From positions 1-49,339 of the IMG/VR virus record IMGVR_UViG_3300050033_000169: a DNA stretch of 49,339 nt. The stretch is one strand, 5' to 3'. This document shows, one piece after another, positions 1-48,795 of the stretch (within the stretch, counting starts at the first letter, position 1; each line of letters opens with the position of its first letter). The notes below the pieces were generated by a model. That model was not told the DNA's origin and ran no database searches. It worked only from the letters and a program-made list of their open reading frames with translations. This DNA is from a virus. The position numbers and the translations under genes were made by a program.

Positions 1-2493
1 AGTAGCGGTATAGTCACCGTGCCCAACTGAATTTGATCCAAATGCTATTTCGTTATAGGGGGTTGCGGAACTCGGCTCTACGTTATATCCGTAATAGTCG
101 CTCAACTGAGGGCCTGTCACATGAGTTACCCCGCCAGACGCAAACTGTCCTGCACTGTACCCGAAGGCTGTCGATCTATTTAGCCCCGCTCCGCCATATG
201 CAAAGGCGTTGTTGCCAAAAGCCGCGACAGATGATCCCCACGTTGCCGCCGCGCTGTTATAAAGGGAGCCGACATAAAGAGAGGTATAGTTGGTCCACAT
301 GTCTACATTATTGAAATTCTGGCCAGAAACCGGGACGCCCAGACTGACAGCGTGCCCCCCGCTGCTTCCACCCGTAGAAAGTGTGAGAGTACAGACAGGA
401 TTGGTCCCACTCGCGCAGATATTTTGCCAAGAGTATGTATCTAGCGCCGCCACGCTTCCCGTCCAGTAACTTGCCGCCATCTGGGTAATAAAGGAGGTGT
501 AATTTGTGCCACTTGTCGCGTTTGCCTGCGGCGGCGTGATCCGGTTTTGATCATGAATATCGACCGTATAAGGGATTAACTCAGTAGGGTACAAAAGGAC
601 TGATCCCTGCATGTTTGGCGGAGCAACGAGATTCGCCGGAATCACTGAGCCAATGACGGTGCGAAATGTGTACATCGGATAAGCAGCCCCTGCAAGATAG
701 GCAGCCAGCGTCTGCGTGCCGCCCACCGTTGCCCCCGCTTGATTGTTAATGTACGGGTATCCCATGAGGGGCATCGAATCTACTTTGATCAGACCAGGGA
801 GATTCCCGTAAGGGGGGATAACCACAAACCCTTGATCTGCGTTCGACCCCACACAAATAGTGCTATCGTAGGCCGCAGTAGACGAGCCCGCAAATAAACC
901 ACTGGAGTCGTTATCGTAGGGAGTGAAGGAGTATATCGTTGGATACCCGCCTCCATTCTCGCAACTAAATCGAGAATGCCCTTCAATGAGCACGCTACCG
1001 TAGTCATCTATCCACCGGACATTTGTAAAACCGGAAGCGTAGGGGACGAAAGTCGAATTCTCAATCACGAGTTTCCCACTGTTGTTTGGGTCAGCGCCCC
1101 CCCCAATGTACATGAAGGCAACGTTGTTTTCTGTCGGAGTCCATGAGGCGCGCGAGTCCTTGACGATTACCTGATCTGCTATCGTTTTGAATGCAAATGA
1201 GGAATTGAAGGTGATGTCGTCGAACGTCACGATTGCAGACATTTGGTTGTAACTAAGTGCTGCGTAAGCATTGAGGGCCACACCCGGTGCAGATGCCGTT
1301 GCCGGCAAGGTGATGGTAATGAAACCGCTCCCCACATAGCTAATGACTGCGCCCAGCGGAACTCCCGTGCCGACGATCGGATAACCTTGATAAGAGGGCA
1401 GGCCCGCAGTGCTAGACACGCTGGCAATCGTCGTGCTTCCGCTTGTCAGAGTCCCTGTAAAGCTGATCGGAGTAGCCGAGCGCGTGTTCTGCACATCGAC
1501 CGCGTAGCTAGCGATTCCCGAGCCAAAGATAAGATGCCTGAAGTTATATTTGGTTGAATCTATATCGTTGTTGTCGACGTGAACCACTCCCAGACCGCCT
1601 GCGAAAGTGATGAGCGACGCCCCACCGTCTACGGAGAGAAACTGAGCGCCTGAATCGCTGAATGTATACGCGGTTGCATTTAGCTGGGTGATCGTCACCG
1701 GGCCTGTCGCCGTCACCGCAAAGTTGCTTGTTACGGAGCAGGTTCCATTTACCGTGTACGTTCCTGCTGCGAAGGAAATGGTTGCCGCACCGTTCTGGGC
1801 CGCAGTCGCCGCCGCGCAAATTCCGGTCGATGGCGTCGAAGGGATGGTTCCCGTAGGGTCCGCGTTGTAGGGTGGGCTGGAGACGTTAATAGCGCTGTTG
1901 ACGCTTGCGTTCACTTTGCCAGCCACGACGGTGCCTGTCGTCACGCTGCTTGGCGAGATCGGCTGGCCGTTGACGATGTTCGCGGCAGCACCCGCTGCTG
2001 TGGTAGCTCCCGTGCAGCCATTGGCGATAGCGTTTTGGCCAATACATCCCGCTGTGGGAATGACAATCTGTGAAGATGGATAGCAGTCCTTGCATAGCGT
2101 CACTGGTTGCGTATAGCATAGCGGTCCCGTGGTGCAGTTCGGCGTTCCCTGCCCGCTGCTCGCCACAATGTCATATCCGGTATCCAGAGCGGCGAAAGCG
2201 ATGTATCCACCGGGGTTCACGGCATTTGAGGCGTTGGAATAGAAGGGATTCGAGAGCGAGTGGGTTCCGTCGGAAGTCAGGATCGCCAGCGTCTGAGTTC
2301 CGGTCAGGTAGATGCTGATCTTCGCAGCCGGAATCACGCCCAGGAGCTTATTGCTTGACTGTGCTCCCTGAGTGGTTGCCGAGATGCCTCCGAGCGTCGA
2401 TGTTCCCTGAATGGCTCCGGTCTGGCCAAGCCCAGATAGCGGACACAGAAGCAACGCGAGAATAAACAGTATTTTCTTCACGACTTCTATCAT
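1..2493 (-). CDS. Exported beta-helix-like spike/adhesin, C-terminus beyond the left edge
   Basis: An uninterrupted minus-strand frame runs from an ATG at 2493 to base 1 (831 codons, no stop), so the gene is cut by the window edge. Residues 1-24 form a Sec-type signal peptide: a short N-region with two Lys, a hydrophobic core FILALLLCPL, then small residues. The rest is low in charge and rich in Gly, Ser, Thr and Ala, with repeated short beta segments such as TYTVNGTCSVTSNFAVTA and ITITLP. This resembles the pectate-lyase-like beta-helix of phage spikes and depolymerases. The composition matches the 661-residue protein at 11670-13655, which also has a signal peptide. A GTG at 2481 is an alternative start; neither start has a strong Shine-Dalgarno site. 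The role in glycan binding or cleavage is inferred. Confidence 0.75.
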   Translation of the reverse strand, partial: MIEVVKKILFILALLLCPLSGLGQTGAIQGTSTLGGISATTQGAQSSNKLLGVIPAAKISIYLTGTQTLAILTSDGTHSLSNPFYSNASNAVNPGGYIAFAALDTGYDIVASSGQGTPNCTTGPLCYTQPVTLCKDCYPSSQIVIPTAGCIGQNAIANGCTGATTAAGAAANIVNGQPISPSSVTTGTVVAGKVNASVNSAINVSSPPYNADPTGTIPSTPSTGICAAATAAQNGAATISFAAGTYTVNGTCSVTSNFAVTATGPVTITQLNATAYTFSDSGAQFLSVDGGASLITFAGGLGVVHVDNNDIDSTKYNFRHLIFGSGIASYAVDVQNTRSATPISFTGTLTSGSTTIASVSSTAGLPSYQGYPIVGTGVPLGAVISYVGSGFITITLPATASAPGVALNAYAALSYNQMSAIVTFDDITFNSSFAFKTIADQVIVKDSRASWTPTENNVAFMYIGGGADPNNSGKLVIENSTFVPYASGFTNVRWIDDYGSVLIEGHSRFSCENGGGYPTIYSFTPYDNDSSGLFAGSSTAAYDSTICVGSNADQGFVVIPPYGNLPGLIKVDSMPLMGYPYINNQAGATVGGTQTLAAYLAGAAYPMYTFRTVIGSVIPANLVAPPNMQGSVLLYPTELIPYTVDIHDQNRITPPQANATSGTNYTSFITQMAASYWTGSVAALDTYSWQNICASGTNPVCTLTLSTGGSSGGHAVSLGVPVSGQNFNNVDMWTNYTSLYVGSLYNSAAATWGSSVAAFGNNAFAYGGAGLNRSTAFGYSAGQFASGGVTHVTGPQLSDYYGYNVEPSSATPYNEIAFGSNSVGHGDYTAT

Positions 2494-2540: not shown

Positions 2541-2570
2541 TTCTTTGGGAATGGAGAAGTGGTTTATAAT
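2541..2570 (+). promoter_or_regulatory. Candidate promoter of the cargo cassette
   Basis: A perfect -10 hexamer TATAAT lies at 2565-2570 in the 131-bp gap between divergent genes. The matching -35 is poor (TTCTTT at 2541-2546, 18-bp spacer). A small hairpin, GGGAG-TTGTAG-CTCCC, follows at about 2580-2595, before the endonuclease start at 2625. Confidence 0.4.
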
Positions 2571-2624
2571 AGGGGGACAGGGAGTTGTAGCTCCCCATCA
2601 TGTCACACCGGAGGCAAGTCCGAT

Positions 2625-3131
2625 ATGAGCACCCCTGAACCATCTTATCGCGAAATTCCCCTCACGCAAGGTCAAGTCGCCATTGTTGACGCTGCCGATT
2701 TTGAATGGCTGAATCAGCACAAGTGGTGGGCACAATACGACCCCCATACGCAGGGATACTATGCGAATACGCAGATCAAGCTCGCGTCTAAATACTGGCC
2801 TCACTATTCGATGCACAGGATGATTCTAGGATTGGAGCGTGGCGACACGCGAGAGGGAGACCATTGGAACGGAAATTCCCTCGACAATAGGCGGTCAAAC
2901 CTGCGTATTACGGACAATCATGGCAATGGTCGAAACCAGCGCAAGAACTCGCGAAACACGTCTGGCTTCAAAGGCGTGCAGTGGCGGAAAGACCGTTCTC
3001 GCTGGTTGGCTGTCATAAGGGTCAATAGGAAGTTGATATACCTTGGGATGAGGAAAACCCGCGAAGATGCATATGCGCTTTATTGCGAGGCTTCAAAAAC
3101 GCATCACGGTGAATTTGGGAGAGTGGCGTGA
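2625..3131 (+). CDS. HNH homing endonuclease with AP2-like DNA-binding domain
   Basis: The 168-residue protein carries an HNH core at residues 64-94: a His in YSMHRM, then GDHWNGNSLDNRRSNLR with the conserved DH-NGN-DNRRSNLR pattern. An AP2-like region follows at about 113-155 (SGFKGVQWRKDRSRWLAVIR, then IYLGMRKTREDAYALY). This order is typical of free-standing phage homing endonucleases that nick DNA and spread by repair. The ATG at 2625 is chosen because GGAGG lies 10 bases upstream; the frame is open further upstream but that sequence has no domain. It is the first gene of a plus-strand cassette, and its stop overlaps the GTG of the next gene, so it may have brought the cassette in or marks its border. 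Confidence 0.88.
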   Translation: MSTPEPSYREIPLTQGQVAIVDAADFEWLNQHKWWAQYDPHTQGYYANTQIKLASKYWPHYSMHRMILGLERGDTREGDHWNGNSLDNRRSNLRITDNHGNGRNQRKNSRNTSGFKGVQWRKDRSRWLAVIRVNRKLIYLGMRKTREDAYALYCEASKTHHGEFGRVA

Positions 3132-4378
3132 GCAAGAAACCGATCCTGTTCGTCAGTGACTCTATATCGGCCAGTAGCGGCCTAGGTCGCATAACAAAAG
3201 ACTTGGCTGTTCGCGTCCACGAGAATCTTGGCGACGTTTACCGCGTCGGAACCGCTGGATATGGAGGCTGTGGGAGCAGTCGATTTCCGTGGCCTGACTA
3301 CCATTTTCACGATGTAAACAACTGGCTTCTCCCGGAACTGCCCGCAATCGCCGCCGACTTTGCAGGCGATGAAGAATTGCGGATTATGTTTGTTTGGGAT
3401 GCTTCGCGTCTCTATTGGCTAGGCCAACCCCAACTGTGCCCGATCCCCCAGCTTCGCCATTGGGTCGAGACAGCAAACATCAAAAAGTACCTGTACGGAG
3501 CGATAGATGCAGAAGGTCCCGGCGGTAAACTACCTCACCAGATCGCCGAAACAATGAAGGGGTTCGACCGCGTGCTGGACTACTCTGCGTTTTCATCGAA
3601 GATAACCGGTAATCCAGACCATCTACCGCACGGCCTCGACTCCAAGGTGTTCTATCCACGTCGCGGGCAACACTCATGGGTCGATAATCCTTCCGCGCCG
3701 GGAACTGATCGGCAATGCACTGCGTGTGGGGCGATAGATTGCAGTTCGGCCGGAGATTGCGAATGCACGCCTGACAGTCCGCGACAGCGCCTTATCAAGC
3801 ATGGATTTCAGGGGCTCACGCCAGACTCGCTGCTCATCGGCATCGTGGCCACCAATCAGGCGCGTAAGAACTGGCAACTTGGCATTGAGACATGCCGCAT
3901 CCTGCTCGACAGGGGCCATGACGTTCGCTTATGGGCTCACACGGACGTTCTGGACCGCTACTGGTCCATTGGCAACCTGATCGTCGATTACGGGCTCACT
4001 GGACGCGCGGCGATCACTAATCAGCGGTTCACAGACGAGCAGCTTGCGCAGATGTATTCCGCCTGCGACGCGACGCTCTGCATCGGCCCCGAAGGTATGG
4101 GGTTCCCAGCCATGGAGTCTCTGGCGTGCGGCGTACCATGTATTGCCGGGAGCTATGCCGCACAGGCTGAATTCATCCCGAAGTCGATGCAGGTTGAACC
4201 GATAGCCTACTTCCATGAAGGGGCCTTCTGCTCGAAGCGTCCGGTTCATGAAGCGTTGAAGTGGGCAATCCGAGTGGAAATGAATCTCGGGAAAAAGGCT
4301 AGCTTGCCTTCGGAGTTTGATTGGAACGGACCAACGCTCTGGCCGGCATGGGAATCTTGGTTTAGGAAAGGACTGTAA
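3128..4378 (+). CDS. GT-B (GT4-like) glycosyltransferase
   Basis: The 416-residue protein begins with GTG, overlapping the preceding stop, with GGGAGAG upstream. Its Rossmann-type N-terminus (PILFVSDSIS) and the nucleotide-sugar signature PEGMGFPAMESLACGVPCI at about 321-339 match GT4 glycosyltransferases, where the Glu residues contact the donor sugar nucleotide. HGLDSKVFYP at 168-177 matches the family's HGvD-F-P motif between the domains. Residues 197-213 carry five Cys (CTAC, C, CEC), which looks like a small metal-binding insertion not usual for the family. It probably transfers a sugar to a host surface glycan, or to phage DNA or virion protein. The next gene's ATG overlaps its TAA. Confidence 0.82.
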   Translation: MSKKPILFVSDSISASSGLGRITKDLAVRVHENLGDVYRVGTAGYGGCGSSRFPWPDYHFHDVNNWLLPELPAIAADFAGDEELRIMFVWDASRLYWLGQPQLCPIPQLRHWVETANIKKYLYGAIDAEGPGGKLPHQIAETMKGFDRVLDYSAFSSKITGNPDHLPHGLDSKVFYPRRGQHSWVDNPSAPGTDRQCTACGAIDCSSAGDCECTPDSPRQRLIKHGFQGLTPDSLLIGIVATNQARKNWQLGIETCRILLDRGHDVRLWAHTDVLDRYWSIGNLIVDYGLTGRAAITNQRFTDEQLAQMYSACDATLCIGPEGMGFPAMESLACGVPCIAGSYAAQAEFIPKSMQVEPIAYFHEGAFCSKRPVHEALKWAIRVEMNLGKKASLPSEFDWNGPTLWPAWESWFRKGL

Positions 4379-4917
4379 TGAGCATCGAATATGCACTAAC
4401 TGTTCCAGGTTGGATGACGGAAGAAGAGTTGATCTGGCTTGCCATCGCCGCAGGAAATAAATCCCTCATCGTAGAAGTCGGCTCATGGATGGGACGATCT
4501 ACGTCTGCTCTGGCGGAAAACACGCTCGGCATAGTCATCGCCTGCGACACTTGGGAGGGATCTGAGGAGCACTTCGACATGCTGCGCGACAAGCCGAAGG
4601 GGTGGCTCAAAGAGCAGTTCCTTGCTCACGCTGGACGCTACGAGAACATGGCTTTCTTCCAGTCGCGCTCTCTCGATCTGGCGGCGGCGCTGGTAAAGCT
4701 AGATATACGCCCAGATATGGTGTTCTTGGATGCCAGCCACGACTACGAATCAGTGAAGGCAGACATCCTCGCGTGGATGCCGTTGCTGCGTCCGGGAGGC
4801 GTACTATGCGGACACGACTACGACCCGCCGAACTGGATGGGAATCAAGCAGGCGGTGGATGAACTTATTCCCGACCGGGTAGTGGTGACGGCAACGACGA
4901 TCTGGAGGACTGCATGA
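4378..4917 (+). CDS. Class I SAM-dependent methyltransferase (Methyltransf_24-like)
   Basis: The 179-residue protein has the SAM-binding glycine-rich loop VEVGSWMGRSTSALA at about 32-46, an acidic strand end ACDTW at 55-59, and FLDASHDYESVKADI at 116-130 followed by LLRPGGVLCGHDY. This pattern is typical of small-molecule and sugar methyltransferases found in O-antigen and capsule clusters. It overlaps both neighbours by a few bases (TAATG and ATGA), so the three enzymes are translationally coupled. A role in methylating the sugar or glycan handled by the flanking glycosyltransferases is inferred from position. Confidence 0.82.
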   Translation: MSIEYALTVPGWMTEEELIWLAIAAGNKSLIVEVGSWMGRSTSALAENTLGIVIACDTWEGSEEHFDMLRDKPKGWLKEQFLAHAGRYENMAFFQSRSLDLAAALVKLDIRPDMVFLDASHDYESVKADILAWMPLLRPGGVLCGHDYDPPNWMGIKQAVDELIPDRVVVTATTIWRTA

Positions 4918-5570
4918 GTCTCACAAGAGCAACAATTCCCGTCTTTGTGCCCGTGGTCAACAGGTTCGATCTGCTTAAGCGGTGCCTAGATTCGCTGTCG
5001 ATTCGCCTGACCACGGAGCCGGTCGTTATCAATAACTCAGGGAACAAACTGCCGGAAGAGTTTCACCACTACACGATCATCACTCCCAAGAATCAACTCA
5101 CCTTTTCCCAGACTCAGAATGCCATGCTTGAACTGGCCGTCAAAACCAGAAATCCTTTCTACTTCTTCATGCACGCGGACGCAGAAGACAACGAGGGCAT
5201 CCTCGACAAGCTCTTCGACATGGCCATGATCCAGCGGGACAAGTGGGGAGTCATCTTCACGTCTTACGATGCCCTGGCGTGCTTCAACACGGAGGCGATG
5301 CAGGCTATCGGCGGGTGGGATGAAAACCTGCCGTGGTATCTCGGAGACTGCGACTGCTACAGGCGCTTGAGGCTTGCCGGATATCCGGCACTGAAGAGTA
5401 ACCTCCGGGTGAAGCACACGCCCAGCCAGACGCTCAACTCAGACCCGGAAATAAAGCGTCAGGTGCAACGGGATACTGCCGGGTGGCGCGAATACTATTT
5501 TCTAAAATGGGGTGGTTCAAACGAGCAAGAGAAATACGAGGTGCCCTTCGATGGCAAAGCGCAAGGCTAA
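4914..5570 (+). CDS. GT-2 (GT-A fold) glycosyltransferase
   Basis: The 218-residue protein starts with a GT-A strand (IPVFVPVVNRFDLLKRCLDS). A DXD-like metal/nucleotide motif, HADAED, is at 87-92, and GGWDENLPWYLGDCDCYRRL at 133-152 is the acceptor/catalytic loop typical of GT2 enzymes. This is shorter than many GT2 proteins but covers the catalytic domain. It is coupled to the methyltransferase by an ATGA overlap. With the GT-B enzyme it forms a two-transferase glycan-modification set, probably altering host surface polysaccharide to exclude other phages, or decorating a phage product. Confidence 0.78.
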   Translation: MSLTRATIPVFVPVVNRFDLLKRCLDSLSIRLTTEPVVINNSGNKLPEEFHHYTIITPKNQLTFSQTQNAMLELAVKTRNPFYFFMHADAEDNEGILDKLFDMAMIQRDKWGVIFTSYDALACFNTEAMQAIGGWDENLPWYLGDCDCYRRLRLAGYPALKSNLRVKHTPSQTLNSDPEIKRQVQRDTAGWREYYFLKWGGSNEQEKYEVPFDGKAQG

Positions 5571-6048
5571 CGAGCAGCGCGCGCAACTCAGCTTTCAGCG
5601 GCCGGAAGATTTGCGTCTCTACGAATTTCTTGCGAAGCGGGCCTACGAAGCGCGATACGACCTCTCGACATTTATCCTCGTCAGCCTGCATGAGGCATTC
5701 AAGGGCCAGATCGAAGATGAGGAAGTGAGCGCGTTGGCGGAAGAGGCTATACGTTTAGTGCAAGATCGCACCAAACCTGCCGAGGTTGACCGCGTAGATG
5801 TTTACAGGGTGAGCGGTAGCGGCGCGGCGACACTCATCGGCAGTGGACCTCCGGGGGGCTCTATGGTTGATATCACTCCCGTAGAGTCGCCACCCGTAAA
5901 GCCGCCGTCAGTTTCGATGGATCAAGCCATGAGGCAGGCAGAGGCGCAGATTGCCTCTCTCGACGCCATCGCCTCAACCGTTATGAAGAAGAGGGGCGCT
6001 CGAATCAAGGGCGTACCGACACCACCTGAAATGCCAAAGGAGAAGTGA
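5551..6048 (+). CDS. Small protein with ribbon-helix-helix-like N-terminus
   Basis: The 165-residue protein starts at an ATG with GAGGTG upstream and overlaps the previous gene by 20 bases. The first 60 residues (RAQLSFQRPEDLRLYEFLAK, then AYEARYDLSTFILVSLHEAF) look like a beta strand followed by two helices, as in RHH DNA-binding proteins. The remainder is Pro/Val-rich linker and a short helix ending in a basic tail. The RHH reading is inference. One 22-bp palindrome of the dispersed family lies inside the gene (5754-5775, coding LVQDRTK), so the protein could be connected with those sites, but nothing proves it. Confidence 0.6.
   Translation: MAKRKANEQRAQLSFQRPEDLRLYEFLAKRAYEARYDLSTFILVSLHEAFKGQIEDEEVSALAEEAIRLVQDRTKPAEVDRVDVYRVSGSGAATLIGSGPPGGSMVDITPVESPPVKPPSVSMDQAMRQAEAQIASLDAIASTVMKKRGARIKGVPTPPEMPKEK
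5754..5775. repeat. Dispersed 22-bp palindrome, copy 1 (intragenic)
   Basis: The core GTGCAAGATCGCAC is flanked by TTTA on the left and CAAA on the right. The two arms are near-perfect inverted repeats, and the sequence matches nine other copies in the window. This copy is translated within the RHH-like gene. Confidence 0.75.
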
Positions 6049-6049
6049 T

Positions 6050-6562
6050 ATGACACAACGTCCGATAGGATTCAACGGTAAGCCTATACCCCATGGTATG
6101 CTCTACAGCGACTACACGCCAGAGCAGATCGAAGCAGCTTGCAACGCTCCCGACTTTGAGGAGAAGTGTGCACACGCTCAAGAGAACATGGACAAGATGG
6201 GCGAGTTGATGCGATTGCAACTAGACAAGGATATTAAGGGATTGGAGATGAAACAGCGCAGTGAAGGGCTTTCTTCACCGTATGAATATACTGTGCGAAG
6301 AGTGGTTCATTTGTCGGAGATCGGGGAGTTGACCGACGATCAAATCAATATTCTTCGTTCTATTCCTAAGAAGAAAGACTTGCTAGCGTTTCACATCTCA
6401 ACCGAGCACGATACAGATATTCCGCAGACAGTCAACGGGGTAGACGAGGCACTCCCTCCCGATCCAGAAGTCGAAAAACCAACCATTTGCCCTCGATGCG
6501 GAATGACAAAATATGAAGGCAGTCGAACGTATCATCTGCCTAGTTGCGGTCGGGGTGCGTAA
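6050..6562 (+). CDS. Hypothetical protein with C-terminal zinc-finger motif
   Basis: The 170-residue protein has a strong AAAGGAG site before its ATG. The C-terminus contains CPRCG and a later HLPSC (residues about 147-167), a plausible CxxC/HxxxC zinc knuckle. The middle is helical and charged. The overall family is not recognised. It follows the RHH-like gene by one base and ends the coupled part of the cassette. Confidence 0.65.
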   Translation: MTQRPIGFNGKPIPHGMLYSDYTPEQIEAACNAPDFEEKCAHAQENMDKMGELMRLQLDKDIKGLEMKQRSEGLSSPYEYTVRRVVHLSEIGELTDDQINILRSIPKKKDLLAFHISTEHDTDIPQTVNGVDEALPPDPEVEKPTICPRCGMTKYEGSRTYHLPSCGRGA

Positions 6563-6605
6563 AGGTGTCCCAAGTCCTCCACCGCTACCTCAGTAGGAGA
6601 TTGAA

Positions 6606-6920
6606 ATGACTACTCTGCATGTTGAATCAGGTCCAAAGTTTACTATCGAAGAGCGGTTTATGAAGGAGACTCCCGAGTATCCAATGGGAAGCTACCTACT
6701 TCTCTGGAATGGTCATCCTCAGATTGCAACTGGCTATTTCGAGAATGAACACCCCGGCCATCCGTCATCCTATTGGCACGGCGGACCTCCGTTTGTCGTC
6801 ATGGAAATAGGTGAATGGGATTTCACGCCGAGTCGCGTTCTCGATATAGATGCCCCAACTCGTCAACGGTTACTTCTACAGGCGACCAACAAAGAAACGC
6901 CCAAGGACACTGCCCTTTAA
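6606..6920 (+). CDS. Hypothetical small protein
   Basis: The 104-residue protein is preceded by TAGGAGATTGAA. It is acidic and aromatic (GSYLLLWNGHPQIATGYF, YWHGGPPFVVMEIGEWDF), probably a compact beta fold. No family is recognised. Its last 98 bases overlap the 3' end of the convergent minus-strand gene at 6823-7743, so the cassette joins the late block with no spacer and no terminator. Confidence 0.6.
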   Translation: MTTLHVESGPKFTIEERFMKETPEYPMGSYLLLWNGHPQIATGYFENEHPGHPSSYWHGGPPFVVMEIGEWDFTPSRVLDIDAPTRQRLLLQATNKETPKDTAL

Positions 6921-7743
6921 TCGGATCATCGCAGGAATGGCGTCTCATCGGGTCGTCCGGAGACGCCTTTTCCATCTGCGGAAGAATCGTGAACATGTCC
7001 TCGCGCGCCTTCACGATGCGGTGATCGTCAGCCCGGTACGGAATGCGCCGCGATTGAATCAGATCCCCGAGCACGTCATCGGCCTGCATCTTGTCCAGCC
7101 ACACGCCCGCGGAAATGTCTGTCATCTCCCGCCAGACCTCGCGCCACGAGTCCGTGAACCCCTCAGCCTTTCCACCTTTGCGCCGGCCAAACCGGAGGCA
7201 GCTTTTCTGGATGGGATGCTGGTAGCACTTGGTCCAGTGAGAATGCCGTCTGCCGCCCCGTGACGCCCCGATGACGACCGCGGTGAGGGTAACGTCCCTC
7301 TGAAGCGCTGCGAGCTCGCCTACCGTGCCCCAGCCGTGGGAAAACGACCTTAAAGCGTCGTCGTCGAGGTAAGACACGAGCACGATGCGGTGAAGTCCTT
7401 TGGCCGTCTCGAACAGGTTAGATCGCCAGGAGTGCTTGCCGAATTCCACGTCCGGCAGCCGGGACATTTGCCCAAGCTTGCGGCGGATGGCCAGCGAAAT
7501 TACCTCAGCCATGAACCCGACGTGACGCACGACGGAGATTGCAGCCAACTCGCCGCAAGTCACATCCTTCACGGCGGTGATGGCGCGGATTGAGTCGAGG
7601 GGCTGACCGGTGAGGAGCCCGCCTTCGACGCCAGCGTAAAGCAGTCCGAGAGGGCTGATGCTGCGCGGCTCATGGGTCTTTTCTAGGCCAAGGCGCCGCG
7701 AGCATCTATCGAAGATGTCAAATGTCTGCGCGGAGAGGATCAT
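6823..7743 (-). CDS. Cas4/RecB-like protein with four-cysteine (Fe-S-type) arrangement
   Basis: The 306-residue protein opens with LSAQTFDIFDRCSRR, the N-terminal pattern of Cas4/AddB-like PD-(D/E)XK nucleases, where one Cys near the N-terminus (C14) pairs with three near the C-terminus (C271, C279, C285 in SCDDPIKGQCPWAFLCW). Such Cys ligate a 4Fe-4S cluster in the family. The expected GxxD and D/ExK catalytic segments are not clear: the region GELAALQRDVTLTAVVIGAS occupies their place without an obvious acidic-lysine pair. It may be catalytically degenerate or only distantly related. It is the last gene of the late block, starting four bases inside the end of the previous gene. Confidence 0.6.
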   Translation of the reverse strand: MILSAQTFDIFDRCSRRLGLEKTHEPRSISPLGLLYAGVEGGLLTGQPLDSIRAITAVKDVTCGELAAISVVRHVGFMAEVISLAIRRKLGQMSRLPDVEFGKHSWRSNLFETAKGLHRIVLVSYLDDDALRSFSHGWGTVGELAALQRDVTLTAVVIGASRGGRRHSHWTKCYQHPIQKSCLRFGRRKGGKAEGFTDSWREVWREMTDISAGVWLDKMQADDVLGDLIQSRRIPYRADDHRIVKAREDMFTILPQMEKASPDDPMRRHSCDDPIKGQCPWAFLCWSPVEVTVDELGHLYRERDSA

Positions 7744-11669: not shown

Positions 11670-13655
11670 CTAGTAGCTCGGATACCACTTCGCTGCTGTT
11701 GGATCGTAGGTCATAATCAGTTGTTTTCCAACGATTCCAAGGGATGTAATCGCTATGTTTCCTGCGGTTGTTGTTGTGAAAGCCGCGTCTGGAATCAGGA
11801 ACAACTGGCAAGTAGTCGAATCTACCATGCCAATAAAAGAGTCAGGTATACAAAACGTGGGGACCGTAATCGTATTGATCGCCGTCGTTCCACCCACATG
11901 AAAAACCTGAGTTTGTGGGGTAATTGTTGAAGCTGCTGTTATTACAGATTGGGTTGAAAGATTTGCTGGACCGCCAGCGATGGACGCTGCTGATGTGAGC
12001 AAGCTGTACCCGGAGATGTTATTGCCCCCGCCGTCGATGAACGGGGAGCTAAGCACCACAGCATTTGCCGCTGTTCCCATTTTTATAAAGCTATTAGCCA
12101 AATGGAGAAGACAAAAACTGTTGTCAGTCACTATCCCGTAGGTCCCGGTGTTTAAGTCTTGCATGAAAAGGTTGTCAAAAAACGCTTGATCCTTGTTCCT
12201 GAATTGGGCATATCCGATAGCAGCAGCCCAAGGAAATGCATCATTAGTTGAGTAGAACATACCCGATGCATCGACTGTAAACATATCCCGTGTTGTAGAA
12301 ACTGCGAACCCATAAGAGTTCGAGTTGCTGAACATAGTCCCTGCGTTAAGCGTGAGACATGACAGTCCGCATAGTACGTTGTAACCGTTTGTGAAGGTGA
12401 GAGGGGCCTGTATAGCCATGTTTACCAACAGTTGTGTATTCCCGAATCCTTCTAGACCAACTTTGTCCATGAACCCGTTGGAAAGATTTGGGCTCGTACC
12501 CCCGATGCTTACCCCGGTAAAATTTGCTGTCTCGCCGCCCCATCCCAAAAGGGCAACATCGTTAAAGAAGAAGTTCGTTCCAACCGATATAGACGGAACC
12601 AAAATTGCTGCTTTGCCGTTGAAACTGCTGTCAAGCGTTCCATTTCCAGCGCCAAAAATGGCGAGATGGTTGAGCGAAATAGTTGGCACAGAAAAGAAAC
12701 ACCCATTTTGTGCGGTGTTTGGTCCGGTGCAGTTAGTTCCGAGCATTGCGGGAGTGGGAACTATAAATGTTGATTGGGAACCAGACCCACTAATCTCATA
12801 GCCTTTTCTGAGTGCCAGATTCGTGTTAACTTCTGCGCATCCAGTCGTCGTCGAGTAGGTATAGAATTCGGGTTGCTCAACAAGCATGTAACCAGCCGGG
12901 AGCACTAACGGCTGGCAGTTGGACTGTGCTGCGGTCCATGCGGCGAATAGCGAGTCATTTGCAGTGGTCTGCGTCACGTTGTAAGCAGCACTGTCAAGAT
13001 GACCCCATACAAGTCGTGCCTGTCCGGTGTAAGTTCCATTCGCAGAACCCGGAGATACTGTAATAGACTGCGCATTGTTCACTATAGTGATCGTGCTTCG
13101 GGCAACAACAACGCCAGAATCTGCCATCGTAATATCTTGCGTCATGCTCGTAACGAAGGCGATTTTTCCCACGTCCGTAGCAGTGAAATTGCAATCGCTG
13201 GCGGGACATGTGATAGTGGAAGATGTAACAACCGTGCTAGCATCTCCCACGGTCTGGCCATCGGCTTTGACACCATAGCCAACAGCATAAATACTATTAT
13301 CTAATGCAGCGGGTACCACAGTGCCAGCCGCGACGGTGCCTGGTACATTCAGGTTATTGCCGGTTGCATCTGTGGTGATGTTCGTCGGACCTACTGTAGT
13401 CGATGTGCCTGCCCCGTAGCCCGGAATGGCGTAAGGACCGCCGCTGCTGACTGTGCCGGAGCCACCACTTCCGCCGACCAGCGTCGGCACACCGTTGAAG
13501 CAGACGTAATACGCGCCCGTCGAGATGAGCACCCATGACCCACTGTTTCCGCACGTCGCAGGAAGTGTCCTGACGTAGGACGGAGCGGGAATGTTGATCT
13601 GCGCATAGGATGCAGGAGCCAACGCGAGAATGAACAGCCAAAGCCACTTACGCAT
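11670..13655 (-). CDS. Exported spike/fibre protein with Sec signal peptide
   Basis: The ATG at 13655 is chosen because AAAGGAG lies six bases upstream; a longer frame starts 39 bases earlier without support. Residues 1-18 (MRKWLWLFILALAPASYA) are a textbook Sec signal peptide with an S-Y-A cleavage site before QINIP. The 661-residue protein then has a small N-terminal domain (ATCGNSGSWVLISTGAYYVC, a motif common to phage tail proteins of this kind), Gly/Ser-rich linkers and a beta-helix-like middle (SFNGKAAILVPSISVGTNFF, FMDKVGLEGFGN). It is probably a receptor-binding or depolymerase spike. An exported precursor is unusual for a virion protein. Confidence 0.72.
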   Translation of the reverse strand: MRKWLWLFILALAPASYAQINIPAPSYVRTLPATCGNSGSWVLISTGAYYVCFNGVPTLVGGSGGSGTVSSGGPYAIPGYGAGTSTTVGPTNITTDATGNNLNVPGTVAAGTVVPAALDNSIYAVGYGVKADGQTVGDASTVVTSSTITCPASDCNFTATDVGKIAFVTSMTQDITMADSGVVVARSTITIVNNAQSITVSPGSANGTYTGQARLVWGHLDSAAYNVTQTTANDSLFAAWTAAQSNCQPLVLPAGYMLVEQPEFYTYSTTTGCAEVNTNLALRKGYEISGSGSQSTFIVPTPAMLGTNCTGPNTAQNGCFFSVPTISLNHLAIFGAGNGTLDSSFNGKAAILVPSISVGTNFFFNDVALLGWGGETANFTGVSIGGTSPNLSNGFMDKVGLEGFGNTQLLVNMAIQAPLTFTNGYNVLCGLSCLTLNAGTMFSNSNSYGFAVSTTRDMFTVDASGMFYSTNDAFPWAAAIGYAQFRNKDQAFFDNLFMQDLNTGTYGIVTDNSFCLLHLANSFIKMGTAANAVVLSSPFIDGGGNNISGYSLLTSAASIAGGPANLSTQSVITAASTITPQTQVFHVGGTTAINTITVPTFCIPDSFIGMVDSTTCQLFLIPDAAFTTTTAGNIAITSLGIVGKQLIMTYDPTAAKWYPSY

Positions 13656-13665
13656 AAATCTCCTT

Positions 13666-14058
13666 TTAGGGCAGGAACAGAATATCCACGACATCGCCTG
13701 GGGTTCCAGCGACGTACCATTCGGCTAAGTTAGTTGAGTAGTTGATGGGCGTGCTCATCGATCCCGATCCGCCTGGTTGTCCGCCGGGGAGCAGCATCCC
13801 ATTTCCCGCCGTTCCTAAATTCACCGCCGCCGGAGTGGTCACGCTGACATTCGGCCCACCATAGCGGATAGGATTGGCTGCATTGTTTTGGAACTGTAGC
13901 CACTGGACAATGCAATCGCCAACAGCCCACGGAGTGAATCCGCCTGCGGTATTCTGAGGCCCCGAGAGGGCTCCGGTGTTCGCTGGAATCCCTGCAATGA
14001 TGGGTGTAATCCCACTCGCGGGAATCGTTACCTGAAAATTCAACCTTGGAAGTGCCAT
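13666..14058 (-). CDS. Small virion-associated beta protein
   Basis: The 130-residue protein has AAGGAG upstream of the ATG. It is Gly/Pro/Asn-rich with alternating hydrophobics (LNFQVTIPASGITPIIAGIP, AEWYVAGTPGDVVDILFLP) and looks like a single beta sandwich. It sits between spike and tail genes with a 10-base gap, so a tail or decoration role is likely. No family is recognised. Confidence 0.6.
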   Translation of the reverse strand: MALPRLNFQVTIPASGITPIIAGIPANTGALSGPQNTAGGFTPWAVGDCIVQWLQFQNNAANPIRYGGPNVSVTTPAAVNLGTAGNGMLLPGGQPGGSGSMSTPINYSTNLAEWYVAGTPGDVVDILFLP

Positions 14059-14068
14059 TGTTTTCTCC

Positions 14069-14674
14069 TTAACTTATTCCCATCGCGTTGATTGATTCCA
14101 GCGCGCTGTCTTCCGGGGATGCCATGCTCAACAAGTCTTGCCCCGCCGCGGGAGCCGCCGCCGGTGCGCCGCCAGGGATGCCCATCGCAATCTCCGCCGC
14201 GCTTGACGCGATACCGTTCACGTCACCTACCTGCTGCTGACGGCGTTGCTCGGCCAACTGAGCCTCATTGCCGATATTCGAGCTTGCGGAATCCATAAGG
14301 CTACCACCATGGCTCAAGGATGACTCCGCAGTGCTCTTCTGAAGCCCTCCGACGAGGTTGATGATGTTTCCCCTGTTCGCGGCTGTTGCTGCCTCTGTAG
14401 AGGCTGCTGTGCCCCCGGAACGGGTACCGAAGTTGGCATCCTGAAGGCGCTGCTGCTCTACCTGCCCCTGACCGGCGCTGATCTCGGGAGCGAGAGCCTG
14501 AGAAATCTTGGTTGGATCACCGGAGAGGATGTCTTCGTTGAATCCGGCCCCGGCAGTCGTCAGTCCTTCCCCTACGCCGGTTTGGTAGTCCCCCAGAGCG
14601 CCAAACTTCTTCTGCTCGCCCTGAGTGGGGTCACCAGACGCCAAATCAAAAATGCCACCCACAAGACCGCCCAA
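14069..14674 (-). CDS. Hypothetical virion-associated Ala/Gly/Gln-rich protein
   Basis: The 201-residue protein starts with TTG, supported by GGAGG placed seven bases before it; no ATG is available. It begins with GGLVGGIFDL, has helical Ala/Gln-rich segments (VEQQRLQDANFGTRSGGTAA) and an Ala/Pro tail near 165-180. The composition resembles small ejection or internal proteins of podoviruses. The function is not established. Confidence 0.55.
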   Translation of the reverse strand: MGGLVGGIFDLASGDPTQGEQKKFGALGDYQTGVGEGLTTAGAGFNEDILSGDPTKISQALAPEISAGQGQVEQQRLQDANFGTRSGGTAASTEAATAANRGNIINLVGGLQKSTAESSLSHGGSLMDSASSNIGNEAQLAEQRRQQQVGDVNGIASSAAEIAMGIPGGAPAAAPAAGQDLLSMASPEDSALESINAMGIS

Positions 14675-41866: not shown

Positions 41867-42351
41867 TTGGATAGCTCCTCGAAGCCATACTTTTTGATGA
41901 GGTATTGAGCGACTTGATTACGGTGGATTTGTGCGGCATATTCAGGATAAAGTTTACTCCTCAGCGCCCGCCCCCGCACGGCTATATTTCGCTCCACCGC
42001 TCGCCAGTAGTTCCGCTCTCCAGGTATCACCGCCTGGGCCATGATTGCCAGCCCGTGCTGGCGCTCCAAGAGCTTGAGCCTGTCCTTGTCCCATCGCCGT
42101 TGCTCCCACTCTGGGTTGGGGTTGAACTCGTTCAGCGCCAGGTCTCTGACCTTGAGCCCCATGGCCGCGAGAATCTCGTCTCTCTGGCACCCGGTGAAGC
42201 ATTTCAGCCTCACCCAGCCGTCGTCCGATTCCCATACGGACAGGCTCCGGTTACGATCTCCGTGGGAGTGAAGGCCGGTAGGACAGCGGCATTGCCATCT
42301 TTTACCGGCCTTCTTGCCGTGGAGTTGTTTAGCTATCTGACTCGCCGTCAT
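41797..42351 (-). CDS. Primase-type CHC2 zinc-finger protein
   Basis: The ATG at 42351 has GAGGAAG close before it. The 184-residue protein has CRCPTGLHSHGDRNRSLSVW followed by DDGWVRLKCFTGCQRDEILA (residues 21-61). This is the C-x-C-H...C-x3-C zinc finger of bacterial and phage primases with the downstream GD and SL positions intact. No TOPRIM or helicase domain follows, so it is a stand-alone template-binding part or the N-terminal piece of a split primase. It overlaps the methyltransferase gene by 23 bases. Confidence 0.78.
   Translation of the reverse strand: MTASQIAKQLHGKKAGKRWQCRCPTGLHSHGDRNRSLSVWESDDGWVRLKCFTGCQRDEILAAMGLKVRDLALNEFNPNPEWEQRRWDKDRLKLLERQHGLAIMAQAVIPGERNYWRAVERNIAVRGRALRSKLYPEYAAQIHRNQVAQYLIKKYGFEELSNCLPQNLVQSCISPLQTLTPSAP
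41830..41851. repeat. Dispersed 22-bp palindrome, copy 9 (in overlapping genes)
   Basis: The core ATGCAAGATTGCAC is followed by TAGA. It lies in the 70-base region that two genes read in different frames. Confidence 0.7.
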
Positions 42352-43333
42352 CTTCCTCGTCAATCTCGTCAAGCAGATTCATTTGCCCAGTTGTGTCGGT
42401 CCAGTTATCCGCAACTCCGCTTTCAAGATTCCGCTTTGCTTGGGAGTAGTAACTTGGCTTGAGTTCGACGCCGATAGCGCGGCGACTTTGCGCAACCGAA
42501 ACGTAGACCTCCGAACCAACCCCCATAAAAGGTGTCATAACCGTTTCTCCAGGGTTAGACCAAAGCGTCAGAACTCGCTCGATTACGTCAAGCTGGAGTG
42601 GATGAACATGCTTTTCGTCTTCTTCGTCGCGAGCTTGGATGAACGGGAGAACCCTACCTATCCGAATGTCGTCCCAGAAGGCGGAAGCGTACTGCCGCCA
42701 GATCCAATGCGAGTACCTATTTTCGATCTGATTTCCCTTCCAGTTTTTATACCGCAGCAACTCGGCGGGCATCTCCCGTTCGCCAGCGTACGATTGCAGC
42801 CCCGTAGGATGAGCTATGGGGGCAGGGTTCTCTCCTTTGCGGCGAAAGACTAGCAGGTAGTCAGCAGACGCCACAGAGCAACGGCTGGAGTCATCCACGA
42901 TGGTCTTGTGGGCAAGGTTCTTTGCCATTGTCCGGTTGCGCACCGCCAGAGGCTCTTTCCATATCGAGTACCGGGCAATGTACTTCCATCCTTCCCGCTC
43001 ATGGAGTCGGATGATGTCGCCGGGGAAGTCAATCAGACCATCGGTCCCACAGTTACCTGTCGGCACGTCCATGCAATGCACCGCTGTCATGCGACCGGGA
43101 ACCGTCAGGCGAAAGAGTTCGCGCACAACAAAGGTGTAATGCTCAAAGAACTGGTCGTAGTCCTTACAGTTCGACAGGTCTTTCTCGCTAGAACTGTAGC
43201 AATAGAGTCCTCCGAACGGAGGAGAATATACGGAAAGGTGAATACGTCCGGCAGGTAGGGACTTCATGACCTCGATGCAATCTCCGTTGTATATGGCGTA
43301 CTGTTTGGTGATTTCCTGTTCCTTCACAGCCAT
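42329..43333 (-). CDS. DNA methyltransferase (N6-adenine or N4-cytosine, beta-type order)
   Basis: The 334-residue protein has YNGDCIEVMKSLP near 15-27, the catalytic SPPF at 37-40, and the SAM-binding FMGVGSEVYVSVAQSRRAIG, VELKPSYY block in the C-terminal third. This is the order of beta-class amino-methyltransferases. The target base cannot be told; SPPF is found in both N4-C and N6-A enzymes. It overlaps the SNF2-type helicase by 10 bases, so the two are expressed together. It may protect phage DNA or mark newly made DNA. Confidence 0.85.
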   Translation of the reverse strand: MAVKEQEITKQYAIYNGDCIEVMKSLPAGRIHLSVYSPPFGGLYCYSSSEKDLSNCKDYDQFFEHYTFVVRELFRLTVPGRMTAVHCMDVPTGNCGTDGLIDFPGDIIRLHEREGWKYIARYSIWKEPLAVRNRTMAKNLAHKTIVDDSSRCSVASADYLLVFRRKGENPAPIAHPTGLQSYAGEREMPAELLRYKNWKGNQIENRYSHWIWRQYASAFWDDIRIGRVLPFIQARDEEDEKHVHPLQLDVIERVLTLWSNPGETVMTPFMGVGSEVYVSVAQSRRAIGVELKPSYYSQAKRNLESGVADNWTDTTGQMNLLDEIDEEDDGESDS

Positions 43334-46805: not shown

Positions 46806-47369
46806 CTACTCCATTTTGGTGCAGGGATAGAGTTCAGGGTGATTCTTCACGAGCTTAACAAAAAGAGAATTCGGAAATGGGTTGTTCCTGATCTTCTGAA
46901 ACACATCCTCCGCGACGTTGGCATAGTGGTACTTACCGTAGCGGAACTGGACTTTCAGCGTTCCGTCCAGCCATCCTACCGCGATCATGTTCTTGTCGGT
47001 GACTCCGTAGAGCTTGATTCCCGAGCCGTGAGCATCCAATCCGCCATCGCGTAGGCCTCTCGCGCCGTCTGTCTGGGAGGGTACTTGTCCTCCTGTAGCA
47101 TGCACACCATCGCGGCGATTGCTATCTCGTCCCGCAGCGTCTTGTACGTTTCCTCTTCCACTTTGCTCCTCCTGTTTTGGTGCAAGATTGCACTGCTCAT
47201 AGTGTCGAATTGCCGGGGTTTTGAAAGACGGCATTGGCTCCATGGCTATAGTTCTCTTCCCCGGTGAATTCCAAATCTCCACATCGAGGGTGCAGACCGG
47301 ACATCGCTCCCAACGGGCATACGAATATCCGGCTGCAAACAACGCCTCTTGTGTGGCCGGAAATGGCAT
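46806..47369 (-). CDS. Zinc-finger protein reading through into KTSC domain
   Basis: The 187-residue frame starts with a zinc finger like that of the downstream paralogue (residues 1-60). It has a middle of poor composition (SGRGNVQDAAGRDSNRRDGV, residues 70-125) and ends in a KTSC domain (MIAVGWLDGTLKVQFRYGKY, YHYANVAEDVFQKIRN). The middle coincides with a nested gene in another frame, and the KTSC part has its own ATG overlapping the nested stop (46988). It may therefore be three genes, with the first having lost its stop. Palindrome copy 10 lies where the zinc finger ends. Confidence 0.6.
   Translation of the reverse strand: MPFPATQEALFAAGYSYARWERCPVCTLDVEIWNSPGKRTIAMEPMPSFKTPAIRHYEQCNLAPKQEEQSGRGNVQDAAGRDSNRRDGVHATGGQVPSQTDGARGLRDGGLDAHGSGIKLYGVTDKNMIAVGWLDGTLKVQFRYGKYHYANVAEDVFQKIRNNPFPNSLFVKLVKNHPELYPCTKME
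46985..47161 (-). CDS. Nested 58-residue gene
   Basis: A GTG at 47161 has a near-perfect GGAGGAGCAAA before it. The protein (EEETYKTLRDEIAIAAMVCM, YPPRQTAREAYAMADWMLTA) has the A-x-EAY-x-AD-x-ML pattern of a frequent small phage/prophage family. It is entirely inside the 187-residue frame. The ribosome site and family pattern make it the more certain of the two readings. Confidence 0.72.
   Translation of the reverse strand: MEEETYKTLRDEIAIAAMVCMLQEDKYPPRQTAREAYAMADWMLTARESSSTESPTRT
47176..47197. repeat. Dispersed 22-bp palindrome, copy 10
   Basis: The core GGTGCAAGATTGCAC is flanked by TTT on the left. On the minus strand it reads as copy 7 does on the plus strand. It lies 15 bases upstream of the nested gene's GTG and inside the outer frame (coding QCNLAPK). 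Confidence 0.78.
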
Positions 47370-47370
47370 C

Positions 47371-48795
47371 TCAGTAGTTGATGGTTACGTGGGGGATGAG
47401 CCCCGCTGCAATAGCTGAGACAATCGTGTTAGCAAGATCCCATTCAATCGGAAGATGCTTGGCTATGGCGTCGATGGCTTCCTTATTCACCTTGCACCTG
47501 TGGTCATCGTCCGCTGCCCGCGCTTCAGCCGCTTCCCGTTCATGCTTGGCTTCCAAAGCAACCCGCATGCGCTCATTTTCGATGGCCTGCTCCTGGTCGC
47601 GCTTGGCTTGTGCGACCGCTTCTTCGGCTCTCCGTGCTGCCGCTTGTTCCGACGCGATGCGCATACCCTCCGCGATCTCCCGGCGCGTATCAGCGTCTTC
47701 CGCTGCCCTTTGAAGGCGCAACGCTTCCGTCGACGATTCTAGCTGGGCCTGTTCCCGCGCGATCCGTGCCGCAGCTTCGATGCGATCCCGCTGTTCCCTT
47801 GCGACGGATTCGGCCCGGAGTTTGGCGAGTTCGGCTTGCTCTTTGTCCCGCGCATCGGCGAGGTCGATAAGTGCTTCCACTCTCATAACCTCGTCATTGA
47901 TGGCGCGCTCTGCCGGAACCGCGAACTCTTGCCAATCACGTTTCCGTTGTTCTTCCAACCACGCAAGGCGAATCGTCAAATCGGTGACTGTTTCGGTTGC
48001 GCCATAGAGGATATGCTCGCGGATGGTCTTGAGCGCTTCCGCGTGTTCATCCACGCGAGTCATTTCCTTGCTTTCCCATTCGGTCAGAGGGCGCAATACC
48101 TCATCCTCGATTCCGCCAACGATCTGCACCAGACGGCGCTTCTCTGCATCGATGGCTGCGATCTTGCGCTTTGTTGCACCAGTCAGTTCCTTTGCTCGCG
48201 CCTCAATGCCGGTGCGGAGCTTCTGGAGTGGACGCGCGAACCGCTTCAGTTCCGTGCGCTTCGGCTCCGTTGAAATGTCGTACTTCTTTGCTTCGGTGAG
48301 ATACCACTGCCGGCCAGCCGCAAGCTGCGCATCGGTGATGGCGCCCGGAGTGAAGAGTAAGTCATCAGCCATCGAGTCGATAACGGCAAGGGCGGTGCTG
48401 GGCGGTTCAGTCGCGATTGTAGACTCGGCACCATTCGATTGAGTCGAGACAGGTTTTTCTGCATCCGCAATACGGGCACGTGTGGATGCAGGCGTAGGGT
48501 CCGGTCCTACCGCATCCAATACGGTGATTACCGGTTCCGCTTCCACCTTCACGTACGGGTACGCGGGGTTGTTCTTAATGTTCTGCCCGAAATAGATGCC
48601 GATGGATGGCGCGGCCACGAGCGCTTGATGCGTCCTGCTGCTCACGTTCTGATAGTGGTACTCGGAGCCAGTTTCGCCGGCGGCGAGTTGCTTGCGGTTG
48701 GGCGGGAACTTCAATCCAAGGGTCTCGGGGCCATAGCGACCTTCCCCGAAACCCACTTCTGCGATCTGCGATGATTCAACTTTGACGTAGTTCAC
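47371..48795 (-). CDS. KTSC domain plus long coiled coil (recombination-operon protein)
   Basis: A GTG overlaps the previous TGA, with CAGGAGTTGAAGC upstream; the protein has 474 residues. Residues 5-85 are a KTSC-type domain (VGFGEGRYGPETLGLKFPPN, YHYQNVSSRTHQALVAAPSI). Residues 150-430 are a charged coiled coil (KRKIAAIDAEKRRLVQIVGG; RRAEEAVAQAKRDQEQAIEN) like the DUF1351-type proteins that precede recombinase genes in phages. The C-terminus is a small alpha/beta unit. KTSC domains are linked to nucleic-acid metabolism; the exact role is unknown. Confidence 0.7.
   Translation of the reverse strand: MNYVKVESSQIAEVGFGEGRYGPETLGLKFPPNRKQLAAGETGSEYHYQNVSSRTHQALVAAPSIGIYFGQNIKNNPAYPYVKVEAEPVITVLDAVGPDPTPASTRARIADAEKPVSTQSNGAESTIATEPPSTALAVIDSMADDLLFTPGAITDAQLAAGRQWYLTEAKKYDISTEPKRTELKRFARPLQKLRTGIEARAKELTGATKRKIAAIDAEKRRLVQIVGGIEDEVLRPLTEWESKEMTRVDEHAEALKTIREHILYGATETVTDLTIRLAWLEEQRKRDWQEFAVPAERAINDEVMRVEALIDLADARDKEQAELAKLRAESVAREQRDRIEAAARIAREQAQLESSTEALRLQRAAEDADTRREIAEGMRIASEQAAARRAEEAVAQAKRDQEQAIENERMRVALEAKHEREAAEARAADDDHRCKVNKEAIDAIAKHLPIEWDLANTIVSAIAAGLIPHVTINY

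Follow-up and report, generated by a model that had tools for sequence, protein, structure and literature searches.

Virion glycosylation by phage glycosyltransferases has been reported in mycobacteriophages, where gene sets of the Che8 type encode such enzymes and are proposed to act on virion proteins (Freeman et al. 2023, via PMC11256854 and PMC12619734). The locus analyzed here resembles these sets, as those accounts portray them, in both respects, but its host phylum is probably a different one, and the likeness is one of description rather than of pairwise sequence comparison. The gtrABC O-antigen conversion clusters of P22 and its relatives are also phage glycosyltransferase loci that may vary among relatives, as our locus does. 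They differ from it in that it contains neither GtrA nor a membrane-embedded enzyme, and we ruled out a gtr-type O-antigen conversion on the absence of GtrA together with the absence of any membrane segment. Free-standing phage HNH/AP2 endonucleases (PHROG 99) have the domain order and the sporadic positions that we find for an endonuclease in our locus and its homologues. Our gene differs from them in being the first of an operon, located between an old promoter and a glycosyltransferase gene, and its homing is putative. Finally, the podophages Tunturi_1 and Tunturi_2 (PMC11924767) share with our phage the order of TerL, portal, head and tail genes as well as a spike domain, but profiles of the three glycan enzymes described below (GT-B, methyltransferase and GT2) gave no match in the complete Tunturi_2 genome.

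Our analysis concerns a stretch of 49,339 nucleotides, hereafter called the window, which represents the linear, 49.3-kb record IMGVR_UViG_3300050033_000169. It gives weak matches to PHROG families for terminase, portal, major head protein and tail fibre, which identify it as a fragment of a tailed phage. The window terminase aligns over 93% of its length, at 30% identity, with those of Tunturi_1 and Tunturi_2, which are isolated Tunturiibacter podophages. A related cassette is found on a contig from an uncultured Acidobacteria assembly, with identities of 61% for GT-B, 85% for the methyltransferase and 49% for GT2. This contig is itself phage-like as far as seen, and its link to a host is thus suggestive only. 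Together, the terminase kinship and the contig indicate that the host of the window phage is probably an acidobacterium, and the phage group probably infects soil Acidobacteria. Two adjacent genes for KTSC-domain proteins are also present in the window (46806-48795, minus strand). We consider it fairly likely that one clade of tailed phages, whose hosts are probably Acidobacteriota, has this cassette as a stable locus for glycan synthesis, and that its glycan would most likely be placed on a virion protein.

Organization and enzymes of the cassette

Seven open reading frames on the plus strand are flanked by a spike gene and the late-block gene g8, both on the minus strand (Table 1). The original prediction of a tightly coupled cassette running against its neighbors is borne out by this arrangement, as is the convergent overlap at its end, where g7 and g8 share 98 bases (6823-6920). 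Family matches and the positions of the reading frames also agree with a glycan-synthesis cassette adjoining the spike gene. The frames are conserved in related contigs, which excludes chance open reading frames. G+C content and codon usage are ordinary in the GT-B, methyltransferase and GT2 genes, and G+C is lower in the HNH gene, g6 and g7 (0.49-0.51). A scan for sigma-70 consensus promoters and terminators found no excess over chance.

Table 1. Features of the cassette region in the window, followed by spike/fibre proteins in related loci (L numbers)
Feature	Position	Strand	Remarks
Tail spike/fibre gene	1-2481	-	Truncated at left end of window; GTG start probable at 2481
GT-B promoter remnant and old start codon	2535-2555	+	-10-like TATTCT at 2539-2544, 6 nt, ATG at 2551
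25-codon open frame from old GT-B start	2551-2628	+	ATGA overlap with HNH start; open frame only
HNH/AP2 endonuclease	2625-3131	+	Window-specific insertion; inserted segment about 2556-3127
GT-B glycosyltransferase, GT4-type	3128-4378	+	GTG start within GTGA overlap; EX7E glutamates E322 and E330
Cys-rich insert in GT-B, about 35 residues	3674-3778	+	Missing in eight relatives; low-confidence model
SAM-dependent methyltransferase, Methyltransf_24 type	4378-4917	+	Family match
GT2-like (GT-A) glycosyltransferase	4914-5570	+	PHROG and PDB profile matches; poor structure model
g5, small conserved protein	5551-6048	+	In nearly all cassettes; starts LSFQRPEDLRLYEFL...
g6, small protein	6050-6562	+	CxxC at C-terminus; N-terminal part common to L017
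g7, small protein	6606-6920	+	Common to L012; 3' end within g8
g8, flanking late-block gene	6823-7743	-	Anchor for cross-record comparison
Spike/fibre protein, L002	7699-10068
Spike/fibre protein, L003	2-1672
Spike/fibre protein, L004	7452-10043
Spike/fibre protein, L005	6957-9929
Spike/fibre protein, L012	4787-9967
Spike/fibre protein, L068	9586-13686
Spike/fibre protein, L070	5783-8308
Spike/fibre protein, L071	2993-7303
Spike/fibre protein, L072	2879-3733
Spike/fibre protein, L075	9802-18118
Spike/fibre proteins, L079-L091

The GT-B protein scores narrowly above the Pfam cut-off for Glycos_transf_1 (PF00534; 27.1 versus 26.4 bits). Its AF2 model (mean pLDDT 77.1) has a clear GT-B fold and matches a GT-B enzyme in Foldseek with an E value of 1.5e-13, and both glutamates of the EX7E motif in the C-terminal domain are invariant across nine sequences. 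In the PDB, the profile search and the fold search both rank first the glycosyltransferase B736L from chlorella virus NY2A (3oy2), with which our enzyme shares the GT-B fold at about 14% sequence identity. Beyond the chlorella virus enzyme, near matches include BshA, HepE and WaaG. These matches represent a general GT4-type likeness and are uninformative on the acceptor. No match to GT-B or GT2 was found by tblastn in 50,697 phage records. The two domains of GT-B are separated by a Cys-rich insert, previously noted as an atypical insertion at residues 197-213. The insert is real and atypical, being absent from all eight aligned relatives, but it is longer than first described, comprising about 35 residues (roughly 183-217). 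Its pLDDT values are below 50 in our model. Judged from the aligned sequences, the insert is an oddity specific to the window; a small zinc-binding element is possible, which is a guess made by eye.

The methyltransferase matches Methyltransf_24 with 67.8 bits against a cut-off of 26.3 (1.8e-18), contains a conserved SAM motif and has O-methyltransferases as its PDB matches. The GT2-like protein matches a PHROG galactosyl transferase family (3.7e-17) and a GT2 profile from the PDB (7e-5); a Pfam search with the window protein returned no hit, and its structure model is poor (pLDDT 52), too uncertain to serve as a query for fold comparison. For g5, a family search returned no match, and by eye a ribbon-helix-helix-like protein appears possible. 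The flanking g8 starts with a DRCPRR-like segment and has conserved late cysteines, by eye resembling Cas4/RecB-type nucleases. A Tunturi_2 gene in a g8-like position is annotated as an exonuclease (weak profile match, E value of 0.006), and a search of g8 against the PDB gave no match.

The endonuclease gene and the displaced promoter

The first gene of the window cassette encodes a protein matching a PHROG HNH family (1e-32), in which the Pfam domains AP2 and HNH_3 are both found, below cut-off. Homologues are present in 5 of 17 records, in every case at sites other than the front of GT-B, with two inside the L013 cassette; Tunturi_2 also has homology to this gene. An HNH gene ahead of GT-B was not found in any relative. 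The endonuclease looks mobile, as judged from the scattered sites of its homologues, and is a putative homing enzyme. The original prediction spoke of a cassette led by a homing endonuclease; the leading position is seen in the window only, and the cassettes of relatives begin with GT-B.

What preceded this arrangement can be read from the upstream region. In L002, the ATG of GT-B is located six bases 3' of a TATAGT box. The L002 promoter and start, including the ATG, recur with one mismatch at the remnant site in the window (0 matches expected by chance), which lies on the far side of the endonuclease gene. A TANNNT box is positioned 6-7 bases 5' of the start in 6 of 10 GT-B loci, the window remnant counted, versus 2.8% of random positions; the nominal P value of 9e-8 for this enrichment is too small, as the sequences are related. 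On a plain reading, GT-B would ancestrally have been transcribed as a leaderless message, and the HNH segment would have been inserted right at its start. Because the GT-B promoter remnant stands 5' of the HNH gene, the latter appears to be a newcomer that arrived later than GT-B. The old GT-B start now opens a short frame overlapping the HNH start, and the HNH gene in turn overlaps GT-B, so that the operon is still connected. We also observe two back-to-back promoter-like boxes between positions 2476 and 2555, TATGAT before the spike GTG and TATTCT before the old GT-B ATG, each at a distance of a few bases.

The cassette in related phages

We gathered relatives by scans with GT-B, g8, g9, head protein and terminase. 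GT-B is present in all ten records that have g8 at good similarity (the window, G004-G011, and contig C123 of G018), a sample that is small, consists entirely of fragments and was partly found via GT-B or g8 themselves. The order spike, GT-B, variable genes, g5 and g8 is seen in L002-L005, L012, L017 and L068. The original prediction had suggested looking for the cassette at other positions in other phages; differing arrangements do occur, with the spike elsewhere in L013 and another gene arrangement in L014, but most loci keep the same order. In the variable part, between one and three GT-A enzymes are accompanied by methyltransferases from several different families, with Glycos_transf_2, Methyltransf_11, FkbM and B12-radical-SAM genes in the set; a methyltransferase was not seen in the L005 and L068 cassettes. 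Within the L004 cassette, positions 13157-14581 encode a B12-binding radical SAM protein, and the g8 match of L068 (G009, about 5740-6657) contains one in-frame TGA. L015/L016 and G017, whose GT-B homologues are remote and found in other contexts, were rejected as cassette comparators.

Among more distant relatives, a glycosyltransferase gene is absent from the short contig C94 of G018, which has g9, g8 and spike. This contig and Tunturi_2 indicate that gain or loss occurred deeper in the group and that the cassette is not carried by all of its wider membership. Eight further candidates for cassette-free relatives (G001-G003, G012-G016) were discarded, as they lack g8 too and are fragments that probably do not cover the region. 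As far as sampled, the cassette appears to be fixed within one clade and absent outside it.

These comparisons bear on the earlier view of the cassette as an acquired module, which relatives carrying its genes as universal core genes of the same context and composition would contradict. We find GT-B in every record that has g8 at good similarity, mostly in the same order and with ordinary composition, together with variable downstream content and distant relatives that lack the cassette. Acquisition in a recent sense does not fit the constancy of GT-B, its place and its composition. That the cassette arrived recently as a mobile unit brought by the HNH endonuclease would account for the endonuclease heading the operon and overlapping GT-B, and for the distant relatives without a cassette. 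We nevertheless regard this as very unlikely, since in relatives the cassette has the same location but no HNH gene at its front, the promoter remnant puts the arrival of the endonuclease after that of GT-B, and the composition of the enzyme genes is ordinary.

Candidate acceptors and the spike leaders

In the pathway that we propose for this stable locus, GT-B would take a host nucleotide sugar and add the first sugar to a conserved acceptor in the cytoplasm. The GT-A enzymes would lengthen the glycan begun by GT-B, and the SAM enzyme would cap it by O-methylation, yielding a phage-specific glycan on a common stem. The constancy of GT-B alongside changing later enzymes suggests such a common acceptor with a diversified outer glycan. 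None of about 45 cassette proteins contains a stretch of 19 residues with a mean hydropathy above 1.5. The GtrA flippase (PF04138) is absent from ten records, with a positive control in 7 genomes, and the thymidylate-synthase-family hydroxymethylase (PF00303) is absent from the same number of records, which are fragments, again with a positive control. The TET/JBP dioxygenase profile (PF12851, Tet_JBP) had no matches in the records and none in the control either. No sugar-nucleotide synthesis gene was recognized in the cassette set. The lack of a membrane protein, GtrA, the hydroxymethylase and a recognized sugar-nucleotide gene makes it most likely that the pathway is cytoplasmic and uses host sugar donors.

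We favor virion proteins as the acceptor, with a host surface glycan as a close second. Two points speak for a virion protein, whether of the capsid, the tail or the spike: the locus goes with the tail module, and virion glycosylation by phage enzymes has been reported. We rate this assignment at slightly less than an even chance. It is weakened by the cassette having its own promoter and a direction against the late genes, by an integrase in two records of the clade, and by the fact that soluble glycosyltransferases can modify cytoplasmic glycan precursors of the host. The same promoter, opposing the late genes, would suit early expression, and the integrase makes lysogenic conversion possible. 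The enzymes may alter a precursor of the host's O-antigen or exopolysaccharide, by which other phages would be kept out of infected or lysogenic cells; the gene kinds are typical of polysaccharide loci, and the composition of the cassette is variable. We find this possible but somewhat doubtful, as GtrA and membrane segments are missing and no initiating or lipid-linked enzyme was identified in the cassette. Glycosylation of modified bases in phage DNA is improbable. Phage glycosyltransferases that act on DNA do exist, according to the account of Pyle et al. 2024 in PMC12619734, and the window contains a DNA methyltransferase gene (42329-43333), but the hydroxymethylase is absent from the ten records and the cassette is located with the tail genes, away from those for DNA metabolism. 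The remaining probability falls to other acceptors.

Decoration of the spike, as originally suggested, is possible, and the link is weakened by the presence of the spike domain in cassette-free phages and by its distance of kilobases from the cassette in two records. The window spike starts with an apparent signal peptide, MKKILFILALLLCPLSGLGQ (judged by eye). The next 115 residues or so form a conserved domain, which gives matches to tail fibre/head-binding proteins from other phages. Judged by eye, the window spike and all 14 distinct homologues (ten further loci, four from a separate scan), one of them from an isolated phage, have an apparent Sec signal peptide at the N-terminus, in which a basic residue and a hydrophobic run are followed by a small-residue/Q boundary. 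The N-termini of Tunturi_2 gp12-gp14 are by eye of the same kind, which indicates that leaders and cassette are not obligatorily linked; Klebsiella phage KA2-1, which has the same spike domain, shows no such leader. To our knowledge, Sec-type leaders are unusual for virion proteins of tailed phages, and we found no earlier report of spike signal peptides in the open literature. Two cysteines of the spike domain are both present in 11 of 15 distinct sequences, both absent in 4 and never found singly. This paired gain and loss is consistent with a disulphide bond, which would imply an oxidizing compartment, although the counts come from related sequences and carry supporting weight only. Bacterial adhesin-specific glycosyltransferases act in the cytoplasm before adhesin export. 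By a similar route, the spikes could be glycosylated by the cassette in the cytoplasm and then exported, as their apparent signal peptide and paired cysteines would allow, and virions would then receive spikes that carry glycans and disulphide bonds, either outside the cytoplasm or upon lysis; we consider this unlikely.

The biology of the cassette is of a known kind, and the apparent spike signal peptides are more surprising than the cassette itself. The locus is a clear example of phage glycan genes in which the first enzyme is constant while those after it change; from this pattern one would expect the acceptor to be shared and the glycans to differ from phage to phage. It also shows an endonuclease gene that has come to stand between a promoter and the gene which that promoter served. 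The apparent spike signal peptides raise a separate, testable question on virion assembly. If the glycan is found on virions, virion glycosylation would also be known from phages whose hosts belong to a soil phylum that has received little study.
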